44,740 bases of DNA from a virus, in IMG/VR virus record IMGVR_UViG_3300003321_000572, positions 1-44,740 of that record, one strand, 5' to 3'. This document shows positions 6,769 to 13,570 of this stretch, in pieces (the first letter of the stretch is position 1; each line of letters starts with the position of its first letter). The translations under genes and the position numbers were made by a program. Under the pieces are notes generated by a model. The model was not told the DNA's origin. It made no database searches and was given only the letters and a program-made list of their open reading frames with translations.

Positions 6769-8160
6769 ATGGCAATCAGCGACAACTACGAACGGGTGGA
6801 CTGCGGCCGCATAGTAGTAGTTGAGGGCCGCCAGCGGAGGAAAGTCGAGCCAGACAGCGGCTTGATCGGGAGCATCAAGCGCCTCGGCGTTATGAACCCG
6901 ATCATCGTCCAGCGCGAGACCATGGTCCTCGTCGCCGGCGAGCGGAGGCTAAAGGCCAGCAGGCAGCTTGGGCTGCCGACCATCCCGGTGCGCTTTGCAG
7001 ATGAGCTTTCCCCCATTGAGGCCCAGATCGTCGAGCTGGAGGAGAACCTCAAGCGGGAGGACCTCCCCTGGCAGGACCAGGTTGCGGCTTTCGCCAGACT
7101 GCATACGTTGTATCTGGCCGACGACGCGGACTGGACCCAGGCTAAGACCGCCGAGCAGCTCAACGTCAGCGGCACGACCATCAGCAAGTCGCTGAAGGTT
7201 GCCCCCATGCTGGGCAATGAGCAAATCTCCAAGAGCACCACGCTGGAGGCGGCCTACAACATTCTGGCTCGCAAGGATGATCGGCAGCTGGCCGATGTGC
7301 TGTCCAGCATCGTGGAGGCCACAGCGACTCTAGGGGTGCCCTCGGCACCGCCAGTCCAGCCGGCCCCGGTGTCGGCGTTGCTCCAGCCCGGCTCCGGCGA
7401 GATTGTGCTTCCGCCAACGCTGAGCAGCAAACCCACCCCCACGGTGTCAGCTGCCGACCCTGAGTCTATCCTCAACGTGGACTTCCTGGAGTGGGCCGCG
7501 ACCTACTCCGGCCCCAAGTTCAATTTCATCCACTGTGACTTTCCCTACGGGAAGAACGTCTTTGCTGGACCACAGTCCGGCCGGGACTCCCACCGAACCT
7601 ACGATGACAGCCCCGAGACCTATTGGGGCCTCATCGAGGGCTTCATAGCCAACATGGACCGCTTTGTGGCGTATTCCGCTCATATGATGTTCTGGCTGGC
7701 CGCCGACATCGAGATCCAATGGAAAACGATCTCCCACTTCGCCCAGCATGCGCCCAGCTGGGACTTCCAATACTATCCGCTCTACTGGCTCAAATCCGAC
7801 AACGCGGGGATACTCCCGGACCCCAAGCGCGGCCCCCGCCGGATTGTCGAAACCGCGCTCATAGCCTCCCGGGGCGACCGGACCATCGCCAAGGCAGTCT
7901 CCAACGCCTACGCGGCACCCACTGACAAAGCCCACCACACCAGCACCAAGCCGCAGCCCATGCTCCAGCACTTCTTCCAGATGTTTGTGGATGAGAACTC
8001 CATTATGCTGGACCCCACCTGTGGCGGCGGGAGTGCGCTGCGTGCTGCCGAGGCCCTAGGGGCTAAGTCCGTCCTGGGGCTCGAACGCGACCCGGAGCAC
8101 TTCAACGCCGCGCGGAGCGCCCTACGCCAGTTCCGCGTCCTACGGAGGGCCTCCAAATGA
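6769..8160 (+). CDS. ParB-like/DNA methyltransferase fusion protein
   Basis: 463 residues. The N-terminal part (1-150) is ParB/Spo0J-like: VMNPIIVQ, the nucleotide-binding GERR box (57-60) followed by LKASRQLGLPTIPVR, then EENLKREDLPWQDQVAAF and a helix-turn-helix region (TAEQLNVSGTTISKSLKV). A Pro-rich linker (about 185-230) leads to a methyltransferase domain with catalytic DFPYG (257-261, a DPPY-type motif) and SAM-binding DPTCGGGSALRAAEALG (415-431). Motif IV preceding motif I fits beta-class N6-adenine or N4-cytosine enzymes. It probably modifies phage or host DNA for protection or regulation; the target site cannot be read from sequence. Such fusions are known in phages. Confidence 0.85.
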   Translation: MAISDNYERVDCGRIVVVEGRQRRKVEPDSGLIGSIKRLGVMNPIIVQRETMVLVAGERRLKASRQLGLPTIPVRFADELSPIEAQIVELEENLKREDLPWQDQVAAFARLHTLYLADDADWTQAKTAEQLNVSGTTISKSLKVAPMLGNEQISKSTTLEAAYNILARKDDRQLADVLSSIVEATATLGVPSAPPVQPAPVSALLQPGSGEIVLPPTLSSKPTPTVSAADPESILNVDFLEWAATYSGPKFNFIHCDFPYGKNVFAGPQSGRDSHRTYDDSPETYWGLIEGFIANMDRFVAYSAHMMFWLAADIEIQWKTISHFAQHAPSWDFQYYPLYWLKSDNAGILPDPKRGPRRIVETALIASRGDRTIAKAVSNAYAAPTDKAHHTSTKPQPMLQHFFQMFVDENSIMLDPTCGGGSALRAAEALGAKSVLGLERDPEHFNAARSALRQFRVLRRASK

Positions 8161-8516: not shown

Positions 8517-8950
8517 CCAAGCGCCTTCCGACGTTCCATGAGATCGTACCAATCTCCACCTGGACCTACACCTGCACGGTCGCCAAATGCGGCGCTGGCA
8601 TCAACACACTAACCGGCAGTTCCCAATGCGACATAGAGGACTGCCCCAAGCGGCTACACCCGGAGCCGTCCAGAGTCGCTGGCCTCCTGGCCGACTTCGA
8701 CGCCGCCATTGCCAGCATTACCCAGGTCCGAGGCAAGTCCTACGGACATCCCGCGGAGGACTTCCGGCGGATAGCACAGCTAAGTGCGGCCCTGCCGCAA
8801 TTCTCGGATCCTCGCTTCCGCCACATCGCTTACATGATTTGCGTCAAGCTCGCGAGGCTCTCCGAGACTCCAGATCACCTGGACAGCCTCGTAGACATTG
8901 CCGGCTATGCTCGCACCTGGGCTATGATACTCGACAAGGAGTCAAAGTAG
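8513..8950 (+). CDS. DUF6378-like phage protein with N-terminal Cys motif
   Basis: 145 residues. Residues about 70-140 show the pattern RGKSYGHPAEDFRRIA, then MICVKLARLSETPDHLDSLVDIAGYA, typical of the DUF6378 family found in many phages; its biochemical role is not established, though the helical arrangement recalls MazG-like nucleotide pyrophosphatases. The N-terminal 50 residues hold cysteines (CTVAKCG, CDIEDC) that look like a small zinc ribbon. Four-base overlap with the gene before. Confidence 0.7.
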   Translation: MTKRLPTFHEIVPISTWTYTCTVAKCGAGINTLTGSSQCDIEDCPKRLHPEPSRVAGLLADFDAAIASITQVRGKSYGHPAEDFRRIAQLSAALPQFSDPRFRHIAYMICVKLARLSETPDHLDSLVDIAGYARTWAMILDKESK

Positions 8951-8980
8951 TCGCTCCGCTGCTGCTGAGGGAGACTGCCA

Positions 8981-9301
8981 ATGTTTGCCCTGGCCGAACC
9001 AGATCTACCAGTCGCTGAGCCGGACGAGGAACTGCCGACCGTTGAGGCCCCCTGGCCCATCAGCGAGCCCCCGGCGACGACCCTATTCCGGCTCTGCCAG
9101 TACATGGGTGGCGGCATCGAGGAGCGACTTCCCATGTGCGGCCGGCCTACGGCCGGCAAAGTCTACTGTGCCGAGCACCACGCGCTCTGCTGGCAGGTCG
9201 GCACGGCCACGCAGCAGCTTCCACGCGGCGTTCGTCGTCGGCGAGTAGCGTCGGACGAGCACGGCATCGCAGACCTCCTCAAGCAGTTCGAGAAGCGCTG
9301 A
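8981..9301 (+). CDS. GcrA-like zinc-motif protein
   Basis: 106 residues with CQYMGGG (about 40), MCGRPTAGKVYCAEHHALCWQ (about 51-71): a C..C..C..H cluster matching the C-terminal end of the alphaproteobacterial cell-cycle regulator GcrA and short phage homologues. The N-terminal DNA-binding helix-turn-helix of true GcrA is missing; the first 35 residues are acidic and Pro-rich. It may modulate sigma70-dependent host transcription, by analogy. The stop overlaps the ancestral start of the polymerase gene (TGATG). Confidence 0.6.
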   Translation: MFALAEPDLPVAEPDEELPTVEAPWPISEPPATTLFRLCQYMGGGIEERLPMCGRPTAGKVYCAEHHALCWQVGTATQQLPRGVRRRRVASDEHGIADLLKQFEKR

Positions 9302-9870
9302 TGCCCGGGGCTCCGTTTGAGTTTTCCTCCGGCCCCCGGGACGCCCGCATCGCGTTCGTGGCCGAGGCTCTGTGTTGCCCAACTGTACCATTCGTAGCAG
9401 TACCGTTATCACGAGGATATAAGGCTTTTGTTAGTCCAGAAGATGCAGAAAGGGTACTACGTTTCAAATGGTACGTCGATATAGGAAAGTGGACGATATA
9501 CGCCAAATCCGATCAGGTTCCTGGCAGACAAAGACTTCATAGCTTCATAATGAAGCCAATCGGGAACCTAATCGTAAATCACATCGACAGAGTAGGATTG
9601 AACTGCACGAGATCAAATCTCGAAATATGCACACAAAGTATCAATAGTCGGAAATCCAAAAAGAGAATTATTGATGAAGAGTCTAATTATTCCTCTCAGC
9701 ACAGAGGAGTATATTTCTTTCCAGAACGTGGTAAGTATGTAGCTCGAATAACAATTAACTATAAAACGAAACATCTCGGTATTTTCAGCACCGAAAAGGA
9801 AGCCGCAGAAGCTTATAATATAGCTGTTAAAACTCTAATTGGGGAGGATTATCCGCTAAATGACATATAG
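9301..9870 (+). CDS. HNH-AP2 homing endonuclease fused to the polymerase 5' end
   Basis: 189 residues. The first 23 codons are GC-rich and are the original N-terminus of the downstream UDG/polymerase gene (PFEFSSGPRDARIAFVAEA). From about 9370 the DNA turns A/T-rich and encodes a homing endonuclease: LSRGYKAFVSPEDAERV, HNH core around RLHSFIM, VNHIDR and TRSNLEICTQ, then an AP2-like DNA-binding domain (HRGVYFFPERGKYVARI, KHLGIFSTEKEAAEAYN). It therefore uses the host gene's start signals. It probably cuts and copies itself into intact polymerase genes. The next gene begins within its last codons. Not an intron: a complete stop and a duplicated exon follow. Confidence 0.88.
   Translation: MPGAPFEFSSGPRDARIAFVAEALCCPTVPFVAVPLSRGYKAFVSPEDAERVLRFKWYVDIGKWTIYAKSDQVPGRQRLHSFIMKPIGNLIVNHIDRVGLNCTRSNLEICTQSINSRKSKKRIIDEESNYSSQHRGVYFFPERGKYVARITINYKTKHLGIFSTEKEAAEAYNIAVKTLIGEDYPLNDI
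9313..9369 (+). repeat. ancestral copy of the interrupted polymerase exon
   Basis: Nineteen codons, PFEFSSGPRDARIAFVAEA, left upstream of the HNH insertion. They encode the same peptide (16 of 19 residues identical) as 9881-9937, but 16 of 19 codons differ. Confidence 0.85.
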
Positions 9871-10921
9871 ATGTGGAAGCCCCTTTGAATATACGTCTGG
9901 CCCAAGGGATGCTAAAATAGCGTTTGTCGCTGAAGCATTTGGCGCCGACGAAGAAAAGATCGGCCGCCCCCTCGTCGGCCTCAGTGGCCAGGAACTCCGC
10001 CGAATGTGCGGCGAGGCCGGCATAGACCTTGACTCCTGCCTGCGCACCAACGTCCTCGCCCTCCGTCCACCCGGCAACAAACTGGAGGCCCTCTGTGGCA
10101 AGAAAGCAGAAGTCGGCGCAGGTTATTCCCTTCCCCCTATCTCTCAAGGAAAGTATCTACGGCCAGAGTTTCTCGGAGAGCTTAGTCGCCTGGGAGCAGA
10201 ACTCGAAGCGTGCCGTCCAAACGTTGTTGTCGCGCTGGGCAACCTGGCGTGCTGGGCGTTGCTCCGTCGGACCGGCATCGGCTCCATCCGGGGCTACGTT
10301 GCCGCCTCCGTCGCCCCCGCCGGCTTGAAGGTCCTCCCGACATACCACCCGGCAGCGGTCCTGCGGAATTGGGCTTGGCGCCCTATAGTTCTTCAGGACC
10401 TCCAGAAGGTCCTACGGGAGTCTAAGACGCCGGACATCGTTCGGCCGAGCCGCAAGCTGCTCATTCAGCCAACTCTTGCCGAGCTTGCCTCCTGGGTGAG
10501 GGCTTGCAAGGCAAGCCCTCCTGACTGGCTTTCCGTCGACATCGAGACCAAGCGCCGCCAGATCACCATGATCGGGTTCGCCAGGAGCGCTTCGGATGCA
10601 CTAGTTGTTCCGTTCGTCGATGAAAGCCGTCCGGGAAATTCTTACTGGCCGACTGCCGCCATGGAAGTTGAAGCCCGCCAGTGGTGCAATGAGCTATTAG
10701 GCAGCAGTATTCCAAAGCTCGCACAGAACGGTCTGTATGACACTCAGTTTTTATGGAGGGAAGGGTTCAAATTACGCTCATTCAAACATGATAGCATGCT
10801 TCTCCATCACAGTCTTTATCCCGAGCTTTTGAAAGGATTAGGCTTTTTGGGTTCAATTTACACTGACAACCCAGAATGGAAGTCCCTTAGACGAGAGGAG
10901 ACTACGAAACGTGACGAATAA
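9860..10921 (+). CDS. UDG domain plus 3'-5' exonuclease motifs I-II (N-terminal half of a split family A polymerase)
   Basis: 353 residues. Residues 8-190 form a family 4-type uracil-DNA glycosylase-like domain (GPRDAKIAFVAEAFGADE, TNVLALRPPGN, VVVALGN, TYHPAAVLR at 161-169). Residues 220-345 form a DnaQ/PolA-type 3'-5' exonuclease with motif I D227-x-E229 (VDIETK) and motif II N290..D294 (NGLYDTQF), ending after SIYTDNPEWK. Motif III (Y-x3-D) is absent here and lies at the start of the gene at 12056. UDG-fused family A polymerases are known in phages. The first 80 bases and the last 330 or so are A/T-rich and recoded, next to each HNH gene. ATG 9860 has GGGGAGG upstream. Confidence 0.85.
   Translation: MTYRCGSPFEYTSGPRDAKIAFVAEAFGADEEKIGRPLVGLSGQELRRMCGEAGIDLDSCLRTNVLALRPPGNKLEALCGKKAEVGAGYSLPPISQGKYLRPEFLGELSRLGAELEACRPNVVVALGNLACWALLRRTGIGSIRGYVAASVAPAGLKVLPTYHPAAVLRNWAWRPIVLQDLQKVLRESKTPDIVRPSRKLLIQPTLAELASWVRACKASPPDWLSVDIETKRRQITMIGFARSASDALVVPFVDESRPGNSYWPTAAMEVEARQWCNELLGSSIPKLAQNGLYDTQFLWREGFKLRSFKHDSMLLHHSLYPELLKGLGFLGSIYTDNPEWKSLRREETTKRDE
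9881..9937 (+). repeat. recoded duplicate of the interrupted polymerase exon
   Basis: Second copy of the 19-codon exon, reading PFEYTSGPRDAKIAFVAEA, A/T-rich and almost fully synonymous to 9313-9369. It restores the N-terminus of the UDG/polymerase gene downstream of the endonuclease. Confidence 0.85.
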
Positions 10922-11462
10922 CTGTATAGTCTGCCAAACAGCTAAATCCATTGTCCGTAAGATGTGCAGGAAATGCTACAATCATTGGTATACTAAAAAC
11001 CGAAATAAAGGAAACTTCGTGGATACGAGACACAAAAACCTAAAGAGATGTCGAATTGAGCATTGTACCGGATGGACTACAGCAGACGGCTTATGTGCGA
11101 AACATTATGCTCGTAGATGGCGGCACGGCAGTACTGACTCGCTCATACCAAATTATGGCCTTGGAATAACTCAACATTCACAAGGTTATATCAGAATAAA
11201 AAAGGGGGATAAGTGGTTTATGGAGCATATATTATTGGCTGAAAAAGCTTTAGGCAGATCACTACCGCCAAAAGCTGTTGTTCACCATACCGGCGCACCA
11301 GATGATAATCATGGCTTTATGAAGCTTATCGTCTGTCCTGATCAAGCATACCATTTCCTGCTGCATAAACGAGCTGAGGAAATGAAATTGTACGGCAGAT
11401 GCTTTACGACTTCATATGGAAAGACATCTGAAGTACGTCGGGCATTGGAGACTAAAAAATGA
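10911..11462 (+). CDS. HNH homing endonuclease with zinc fingers
   Basis: 183 residues; GTG start 11 bases after AGGAG, overlapping the end of the UDG-exonuclease gene. Two Cys-rich modules precede the nuclease: CIVCQTAK..MCRKCYNHWY (4-27) and CRIEHCTGW..LCAKHYARRW (about 47-71). The HNH core follows: HILLAEKALGRSLPPKAVVHH, then a CPDQAYHFLLHKRAEE close. The DNA is A/T-rich and unlike the surrounding genes, as in recently acquired endonuclease genes. It sits exactly where the polymerase gene is broken. The next gene starts in its stop (ATGA). Confidence 0.88.
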   Translation: MTNNCIVCQTAKSIVRKMCRKCYNHWYTKNRNKGNFVDTRHKNLKRCRIEHCTGWTTADGLCAKHYARRWRHGSTDSLIPNYGLGITQHSQGYIRIKKGDKWFMEHILLAEKALGRSLPPKAVVHHTGAPDDNHGFMKLIVCPDQAYHFLLHKRAEEMKLYGRCFTTSYGKTSEVRRALETKK

Positions 11463-11866
11463 AACGAGTCATAATAGAATCCCCCTACGCCGGGGACATC
11501 CCAACCAATGTCATGTACGCTCAGCGCTGCGTCCGTGACAGCGTTCTCCGCGGCGAAGCTCCCATCGCTTCGCACTTGCTCTTCACTCAGCCGAACATCC
11601 TCGACGACGAGAACCCCGAAGAACGCACCCTGGGCATTGCCGCCGGCCACGCCTGGATGCGAGTCGCCGACGCCTGCGTGGTGTACTTGGATAGGGGTCT
11701 CTCCCGTGGCATGCGGCTCGGCATCCTCGCAGCCAGCCTCTGCGGGATCGAAATCGAATGCAGGTGGCTGCAGGGCCACAACACGCAGACCATACTGGTA
11801 ATGGAGGCCGAGGTCCGCGAGATCATTCGTCAACGAACTGTGGAGCCGATCCATGCGAGTCAGTGA
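11459..11866 (+). CDS. DUF7768-like (nucleoside deoxyribosyltransferase-fold) protein
   Basis: 135 residues. IIESPYAGD at the N-terminus, YAQRCVRDSVLRGEAPIASHLL, RTLGIAAGHAWMRVADACVVYLDRGLSRGMRLGI and GIEIECRWL form the DUF4406/DUF7768 pattern of phage proteins related to nucleoside 2-deoxyribosyltransferases (substrate-binding P-loop-free Rossmann-like fold). Base composition is normal for this genome, in contrast to the HNH gene before it. A role in nucleotide metabolism is plausible and unproven. It lies between the two halves of the polymerase. Confidence 0.7.
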   Translation: MKRVIIESPYAGDIPTNVMYAQRCVRDSVLRGEAPIASHLLFTQPNILDDENPEERTLGIAAGHAWMRVADACVVYLDRGLSRGMRLGILAASLCGIEIECRWLQGHNTQTILVMEAEVREIIRQRTVEPIHASQ

Positions 11867-12056
11867 TGTACGACATATGTCAAGGCTTGTCGGCGAGCTG
11901 GACCTGATAAGCAAGACAAAAGAGAAATTCCAGCTAAGCAACGAGCACATACTCGAAGTAATGGAGAAGATGCCCTCCGAAAGACTCAAGCAGCTCATCA
12001 CATATTGGGAAGTAGAAGTCCGCAAAGAGCTTAATCTGCTCGGAGTCCGCGACTGA
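11853..12056 (+). CDS. hypothetical small helical protein
   Basis: 67 residues; ATG after GGAGCCGATCC, overlapping the previous gene by 14 bases and the polymerase start by one (TGATG). Entirely helical and charged (LVGELDLISKTKEKF, EHILEVMEKMPSERLKQLITYWEVEVRKEL). It could be a partner that helps the split polymerase assemble, but that is only a position-based guess. Confidence 0.5.
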   Translation: MRVSDVRHMSRLVGELDLISKTKEKFQLSNEHILEVMEKMPSERLKQLITYWEVEVRKELNLLGVRD

Positions 12057-13570
12057 TGCTCCTGGATACCGCCACTCTGGACCCGGCTCTGCTGCGCAAT
12101 CAGCAGATCAAGGACGCGGTCTACAACGGCACCGACGCCGCGGTCACGTCGGAGGTCTACGGGGAACTTCGCAAGTTCCTCAATGAAGATCCAGCGGTGT
12201 ATAATTTCGCCCGTGCAATACAAGCACCGGCCCTCGAAATGATGCTCCGCGGGTGGCTCGTCGACGAGTCGGCCCGGCAGCGCGGCCTCGCGGACCTATC
12301 CGCTCGCATGGAACACCTGCAGAACATACTGAACCGATACTCCCAAGCAATCTGGGACCGGGACCTCAACCCCCGGAGCCGCCAGCAACTCCTGACGCTC
12401 TTCCACAAGCACATGGGCTTGCCGGAAATCTGGACCTCCAAGAAGGGCGTCAAAAAGCTCTCCATGGACCGAGAGGCCCTAGAGAAACTCCAACAGTATT
12501 TCTACGCCATGCCGCTCATCGCGGTGATACTTGAAATCCGGGACCTCGCCAAGCAGCACGAGGTACTTTCCACTGAGGTCGACCCCGATGGAAGAATGCG
12601 AACGAGCTACAATATCGCAGGTACTGAAACTGGTCGCTGGTCATCCAGCGCCAGCGCTTTCGCTACCGGCTCAAATCTCCAAAACATTAACCCGCGACTC
12701 CGCCATATATTCGTGGCTGACCACGGGTGGAAGCTATGTGGAATTGACCTTGAACAAGCCGAGTCCCGGGAAGTCGGACTGCTCTTGGGAGTTCTATTCG
12801 GAGACTGGACCTACCTGGATGCTTGTGAAGGCGGGGACCTCCACACGTTCACTGCGAGACTCATTTGGCCAGATCTTCCGTGGACAGGAGACATCAAGCG
12901 GGACCGAAAGATCGCCGAGCAAATCTTCTACCGGGACTTCACCTATCGAGACATGAGCAAGCGCGGGGGCCACGGCACAACGTACTACGGCACCCCATTC
13001 ACCATGGCCCGGCACCTCAAGGTGCCCATCAAGCTTATGGAGTCCTTTCGGGACAAATTCCTGGGCCGGGCCTTCCCCGGCATCCCCCGCTGGCACAGAT
13101 GGACGGCGGAACAGCTCCAGACCACCCAGCAGCTCACCACCATGTTCGGCCGAACCCGCCACTTCTTCGGGAGACCCAACGATGACACCACGCTTCGGGA
13201 AGCGATCGCATTTTGCCCGCAATCGGCGACTGCTGATCGAACGAATCTCGGGCTATGGCGTCTCTGGAACCGCCTCCGTTCCCGTATTAGACTCCTGCAC
13301 CAAAATCACGATGCAGTTTATTTCCTCTACCGGGAAGAAGAAGAGTCTGACATTATCCCCCAGGCGCTCTCGTGCATGGAAATTGTTACAACTCACAATG
13401 GACGAGCATTCACTGTCCCCGGCGAAGCCCAAGTCGGCTGGAACTGGGGCAAGCACCATGACGAGTCGAAGCCGCTCGGATCGAAAAACAAGTTCAACCC
13501 GAATGGGCTCAAGAAGTGGCGCGGCGGGGACAAACGGCGCCGCCTAGTTGGACTGGAGATGCCAGCATGA
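12056..13570 (+). CDS. family A DNA polymerase, C-terminal half (exo motif III plus polymerase domain)
   Basis: 504 residues. It opens with LLDTATLDPALLRN and exonuclease motif III Y23-x3-D27 (YNGTDAAVT), the sequence expected immediately after the end of the 9860-10921 product. Polymerase motif A is GIDLEQAESR (catalytic D231), motif B is R298DMSK302-RGGHGTTYYG with His at the position usually Phe/Tyr, and motif C is NHDAVYF (H418-D419) with Ala replacing the usual Glu. Replicative synthesis of phage DNA is the likely job. The proofreading site would have to be assembled from two polypeptides. Confidence 0.9.
   Translation: MLLDTATLDPALLRNQQIKDAVYNGTDAAVTSEVYGELRKFLNEDPAVYNFARAIQAPALEMMLRGWLVDESARQRGLADLSARMEHLQNILNRYSQAIWDRDLNPRSRQQLLTLFHKHMGLPEIWTSKKGVKKLSMDREALEKLQQYFYAMPLIAVILEIRDLAKQHEVLSTEVDPDGRMRTSYNIAGTETGRWSSSASAFATGSNLQNINPRLRHIFVADHGWKLCGIDLEQAESREVGLLLGVLFGDWTYLDACEGGDLHTFTARLIWPDLPWTGDIKRDRKIAEQIFYRDFTYRDMSKRGGHGTTYYGTPFTMARHLKVPIKLMESFRDKFLGRAFPGIPRWHRWTAEQLQTTQQLTTMFGRTRHFFGRPNDDTTLREAIAFCPQSATADRTNLGLWRLWNRLRSRIRLLHQNHDAVYFLYREEEESDIIPQALSCMEIVTTHNGRAFTVPGEAQVGWNWGKHHDESKPLGSKNKFNPNGLKKWRGGDKRRRLVGLEMPA

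Follow-up and report, generated by a model that had tools for sequence, protein, structure and literature searches.

A viral HNH-AP2 nuclease gene that reads from the native start of a UDG-exonuclease gene, followed by a divergent second front end

Two front ends and two starts at one locus

The window, by which we mean the whole stretch of DNA analysed, is a single virus sequence of 44,740 bases with 60% GC, and the parts of the nuclease and UDG-exonuclease locus described here, with the second HNH gene behind it, lie on its plus strand. Sharing the sequence TGATG with the stop of an upstream GC-rich gene, the ATG at 9301 opens a frame that continues to a stop at 9868-9870 and encodes a 189-residue HNH-AP2 nuclease (9301..9870). 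The first 24 codons of this frame (9301..9372, copy A) are the native start and front end of a gene for a uracil-DNA glycosylase (UDG) with a 3'-5' exonuclease, now fused in frame as the N-terminus of the nuclease, and no in-frame ATG, GTG or TTG was found between 9304 and the nuclease core. A second ATG lies at 9860, in an 11-nt overlap with the nuclease stop and behind a Shine-Dalgarno-like GGGGAGG that we read in the sequence (9841..9847). It opens a UDG-exonuclease gene of 353 residues (9860..10921), identified by its Pfam UDG match (E = 4e-16) and by full-length alignment to relatives. The first 27 codons of this rebuilt gene (9860..9940, copy B) repeat the captured N-terminus. The initial annotation, which held that the ancestral start now reads into an HNH-AP2 endonuclease and that the duplicate rebuilds the gene behind its own start, thus described the layout correctly.

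Recounting the 19-codon repeat between 9313-9369 (PFEFSSGPRDARIAFVAEA) and 9881-9937 (PFEYTSGPRDAKIAFVAEA) gave exactly the figures first reported, with 16 of 19 residues identical and 16 of 19 codons different, and 13 of the 16 changed codons are synonymous. Identity over these 57 bp is 67%, the 19 base differences being distributed over codon positions 1, 2 and 3 as 3, 2 and 14, and when the flanks are included 17 of 22 residues agree. The similarity is also recovered by tblastn of the UDG-exonuclease gene against its own genome, which finds copy A with E = 2e-6, and the alignment of the nuclease N-terminus with the start of the downstream gene scores 94, compared with a maximum of 45 among 6000 mismatched pairs of nucleases and downstream genes.

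Whereas the repeat is real, calling it an exon, as had been done, is loose usage, as no intron was found. A self-splicing element, either a group I intron or an intein carrying the nuclease, would suit the habit of HNH nucleases of riding in introns and the position of the insert in a conserved motif, but no Rfam intron matches in 8900-12200 even at E = 5, Pfam detects no intein splicing domain, a stop codon separates insert and gene, and removal would be unneeded because copy B has its own start. We regard this explanation as extremely unlikely.

The nuclease matches the PHROG family of HNH endonucleases phrog_99 with E = 2e-29, and its Pfam matches to HNH_3 (21.9 bits) and AP2 (28.6 bits) both fall just under the curated cut-offs. 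The HNH motif (9556..9651) is followed by the AP2 DNA-binding domain assigned by Pfam (9697..9843), and the nearest relatives of the protein are only 27-39% identical. HNH enzymes bind metal through an Asp of the motif. The corresponding codon here (9577-9579) is AAT, encoding Asn, where the aligned AP2-HNH relatives and I-HmuI (Asp74) have Asp, while the His and two Asn of the motif are retained. Since this metal ligand is replaced, the activity of the nuclease may be weakened or lost.

The target had been labelled a polymerase gene, a name that does not fit because the family-A polymerase has an ORF of its own (12056-13570) and exonuclease and polymerase also occupy separate ORFs in the closest relatives; in two distant loci (L022 and L023) a single fused ORF encodes UDG-exonuclease and polymerase. 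Homologues of the UDG-exonuclease, at 37-60% identity, were recovered at about 100 loci in three viral scans. All of them have a single front end, so that homologues with a doubled N-terminus and no endonuclease did not appear among them. Nor did any of these relatives carry a nuclease directly before the gene or a second instance of the insert within it.

Several further features were observed around these genes. A second, unrelated HNH gene, assigned by PHROG HNH matches and beginning with a GTG at 10911 (10911..11462), overlaps the end of the UDG-exonuclease gene; its relatives are 30-43% identical, and L468 has an HNH relative directly 3' of the same UDG-exonuclease gene. We considered that this second HNH gene might have split the polymerase and discarded the idea, because relatives without it also have separate exonuclease and polymerase genes. 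The relative L021 (7340-10106) has an HNH-AP2-like ORF between UDG-exonuclease and polymerase, and a gap of about 850 bp (8711-9561) breaks its match to the polymerase. In our own record the exonuclease and polymerase genes flank a DUF7768 protein (11459-11866), nucleoside 2-deoxyribosyltransferase-like by PHROG, with a relative at the same place in L018. Elsewhere in the window are a 463-residue protein that joins ParB N-terminal and N6/N4 DNA methylase domains (6769-8160) and a tRNA-Tyr (GTA) at 2337-2424.

Origin of the nuclease gene and of the second copy

Base composition separates the two copies. GC3 is 0.83 in copy A and 0.32 in copy B (Fisher p = 0.0003), compared with 0.34 in the nuclease core and about 0.75 in neighbouring genes, and between copy A and copy B 13 bases change from G/C to A/T and none in reverse, which bears out the strong A/T shift noticed at the outset. 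In a three-position composition model fitted by maximum likelihood, copy A scores as host-like (log-likelihood ratio -17.1) and copy B as insert-like (+12.1). Under the same model the A/T-rich block runs from 9381 (9364-9387) to 9958 (9938-9964), so that change-points and profile together delimit a block of nuclease gene plus copy B (9373..9940). Both edges map to nearly the same codon of the UDG-exonuclease gene (about 24-34), inside or just 3' of a conserved motif that reads VGEAWG in relatives.

Because copy B has the composition of the nuclease and copy A that of the host, we read the nuclease gene and copy B as a single foreign A/T-rich import into a G/C-rich gene, entering it at about codon 24-27. 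The composition tract includes copy B, as co-conversion of a donor flank would entail. By the same measure the remainder of the UDG-exonuclease gene is native except for its A/T-rich 3' end (10688..10921), which adjoins the second HNH gene: a change-point at 10688 (10591-10749) improves the log-likelihood score by 32 over an all-host model, and these last ~230 bp are a probable second co-conversion tract. The three viral scans contained neither an A/T-rich donor nor a close uninterrupted UDG allele above 60% amino acid identity, and a DNA search of cultured phages for either gave no match; the distinction between native and foreign sequence at this locus therefore rests on composition.

A direct comparison with an uninterrupted allele was available for a parallel locus, L148, for whose target gene we collected 80 relatives. 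L148 and the uninterrupted allele L399 share 92.6% identity across 552 bp, a match that runs from upstream into the gene and ends where copy A ends, at the insertion point; L396 matches equally. Over the 42 bases shared by both copies, L399 agrees with copy A at 36 positions and with copy B at 28, and it matches 139 of 162 positions of the gene after the insert. Since L399 resembles copy A closely and copy B less well, copy A of L148 is native and copy B foreign. Composition at the UDG-exonuclease locus and this allele comparison together support the earlier suggestion that flanking sequence was imported from a divergent relative.

The wider L148 family also includes donor-like loci. Copy B starts MHDIK in L148, L395, L400, L423 and L081, with a 13-nt overlap of the nuclease stop in each. 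Two of these loci, L395 and L400, have no copy A, and their nuclease begins at a start of its own upstream of the gene, which is the arrangement that a donor would be expected to have. The combination of HNH gene and MHDIK-type copy B adjoins three different native front ends, in L148, L423 and L081, always after the HE codons, and its presence at this fixed site is patchy among the relatives of the family.

These data bear on whether the phage might simply have duplicated its own front end in place, with later drift of one copy. At the UDG motif (9926-9943) copy B reads VAEAFG and copy A VAEAL, whereas relatives mostly have VGEAWG, and the two copies are closer to each other than to the sampled relatives, as a duplication would predict. 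The shared change from Gly to Ala can also mean that donor and recipient were sister lineages, which is how they look to us. Drift does not readily account for 13 of 13 composition-changing differences running one way or for a copy B whose composition is continuous with that of the nuclease gene, and in L148 the uninterrupted allele is matched by copy A only. We consider a local duplication very unlikely, though a shade less so than a self-splicing element.

The initial annotation had offered, as its other possibility beside import, that the recoding serves to hide the site from the enzyme, a claim that, as stated, is unsupported. With the GC3 of copy B so near that of the nuclease, donor codon usage is enough to explain the recoding without selection, and we take the recoding to be donor usage. 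The stronger alternative, that a synonymous front end was selected and kept since it shields the carrier from cutting by its own nuclease, in the manner of a natural cleave-and-rescue element, gains something from the mostly synonymous character of the changes, which fall where the upstream half-site would lie, and from the comparable divergence of copies in other cases. The shared codon composition of copy B and the adjoining nuclease gene, together with the possible inactivity of the nuclease, weighs against it, and we judge it unlikely, if much less so than duplication. It is nonetheless plausible that copy B is protected from self-cleavage, and loss of a putative cut site may simply follow from donor usage.

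Parallel arrangements at other loci

Viral and bacterial contigs scanned for HNH motifs provided 322 testable loci. Start capture, with a native start and a divergent rebuilt front end, was found at L110, L148, L423, L081, L363, L145 and L086; the weak candidates L308 and L161 were excluded from this count, and we discarded many high-scoring flank repeats as low-complexity artefacts arising in GC-rich DNA. At these loci a gene starts at or within the end of the nuclease ORF, and the ORF itself opens with a copy of that gene's N-terminus. The copies are spaced by the length of the nuclease ORF, with no more than about 30 nt between the second start and the nuclease stop. Nucleotide identity between copies is about 50-80% in these cases. 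The copies read MEAISGTRRAMKE/MNAISGTRRSMRE in L110, PGIHTMTAGDCH/PGIHVITADAYH in L363 and MSESPFRPAAKEAA/MTESPFRPAAKEAV in L145, where the captured gene encodes an AAA_24 ATPase; in L148, L423 and L081 it is holin-like. L086 has a different type of nuclease, zinc-finger HNH-like, before a phosphoesterase-like gene (assigned by eye, with only a weak NinG match in Pfam). In L254, L252/L280 and L238 the native remnant lies outside the nuclease frame.

This recurrence also bears on whether the locus could be a chimera of metagenome assembly. The contig is uncultivated and without close relatives, circumstances in which such an error might arise, yet both reading frames are intact and tightly overlapping, and the same design is found in independent contigs with different genes; an assembly artefact is accordingly most improbable, on a par with a self-splicing origin.

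A uniform test counted 3 fused cases among 271 nuclease ORFs and 8 among 2446 other ORF pairs (p = 0.09). The test is weak partly because at least one of the 8 control cases, L086, is itself a nuclease case, and the claim of generality therefore rests on the individual loci. Among the 14 HNH loci that we read in cultured phages none had start capture. Because the same arrangement appears in several unrelated phage genes, start capture looks like a recurring way for such nuclease genes to move.

Other arrangements were seen at some loci. A possible mirror image was present in L268 and L208/L239, where a divergent copy of the upstream gene's C-terminus closes the HNH ORF, and L268 and L208 are possible instances of stop-codon capture. 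On the reverse complement of L157, the gene before an HNH gene has the C-terminal peptide SGRVSGTEANQIRRKAK, which recurs about 1 kb further on (7884 and 8922), with 16 of 17 residues kept and 11 of 17 codons changed. In Bacillus phage 268TH002 (L048:1664-4682) a DnaB-like helicase gene and an annotated DNA primase/helicase gene flank an HNH gene and are possibly one split gene.

Proposed mechanism and comparison with known systems

Taken together, the sequence data make it highly probable that the arrangement arose by homing of an HNH gene that lay upstream, one flank being repaired by homology and the other joined at the cut or close to it. The donor would have been a related A/T-rich phage whose free-standing HNH-AP2 gene immediately preceded its UDG-exonuclease gene and overlapped the start of it. 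The break in the G/C-rich recipient gene would have fallen in the conserved GEA[WLF]G motif, around codons 24-27. Homologous repair on the 3' side would have supplied copy B, the divergent 5' end of the donor gene, in register, while on the 5' side donor DNA would have been joined at or near the break, so that the recipient's first 24 codons remained, in frame with the nuclease. The nuclease, lacking a start of its own, would be translated from the native one, and the UDG-exonuclease gene would restart at the overlapping ATG. In this account the triggering role of cleavage, the site of the cut, the asymmetric repair, the translational coupling and the resistance of copy B are inferred.

On the usual view, homing nucleases spare the gene they enter only by occupying an intron, an intein or an intergenic site. 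Start capture would be another route, in which a broken gene terminus is replaced by a functional foreign one, and it would explain both the jumps of short coding tracts between distant phages and the odd N-termini of annotated phage HNH proteins, borrowed from the next gene. More tentatively, and with somewhat less than even confidence, we suggest that phage HNH nucleases could be recurrent start-capturing cassettes in which a divergent 5' copy both repairs the gene and abolishes the nuclease site, a natural cleave-and-rescue; if so, insertion inside essential genes would be possible without intron or intein. In either event the locus offers a compact natural system for asking whether a supplied synonymous sequence protects its carrier.

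In the open literature, to which our search extended, we found no description of N-terminal capture in phages. Free-standing phage nucleases, intronless homing and co-conversion are well described for the seg and mob genes of T4 (PMC2988022), and our locus shares with them a nuclease gene adjoining its target, flank co-conversion and overlapping frames. In standard intronless homing, however, the recipient site is exchanged on both sides, whereas here the native front end stays fused to the nuclease. The aligned HNH motif resembles that of I-HmuI (PDB 1u3e), with His75, Asn87 and Asn96 kept, but I-HmuI is intron-encoded and without an AP2 domain, and the protein described here has Asn at the Asp74 position.

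The hidden HNH insertions of ShiLan type likewise occupy a conserved coding site, in phage methylase genes (PMC11855218). The first 11 residues of the ShiLan insert resemble the 11 after the insertion, at 66-68% nucleotide identity, which its authors considered a possible intron signature (PMC11855218). The mechanism proposed here may account for that resemblance, although the ShiLan insertion, unlike ours, is out of frame, in mid-gene and without a second start.

By analogy of arrangement, the closest precedent is provided by the mobile ORFs of fungal mitochondria, known from atp6 of Allomyces and from atp6, atp9, cox2 and nad3 of Glomus (PMC3630166). In these, an inserted endonuclease ORF brings a foreign C-terminus for the gene and the native one remains beyond the nuclease, the termini of Glomus atp6 diverging to 63.5% nucleotide and 91% amino acid identity (PMC3630166). 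Those elements belong to organelles and mostly encode LAGLIDADG or GIY-YIG enzymes, whereas ours is an HNH-AP2 gene in a virus record, and here it is the N-terminus that is replaced, with the nuclease taking the start codon and the gene obtaining a new one. Common to both are a nuclease ORF accompanied by a foreign terminus that replaces the native one, and a similar degree of divergence between the two.
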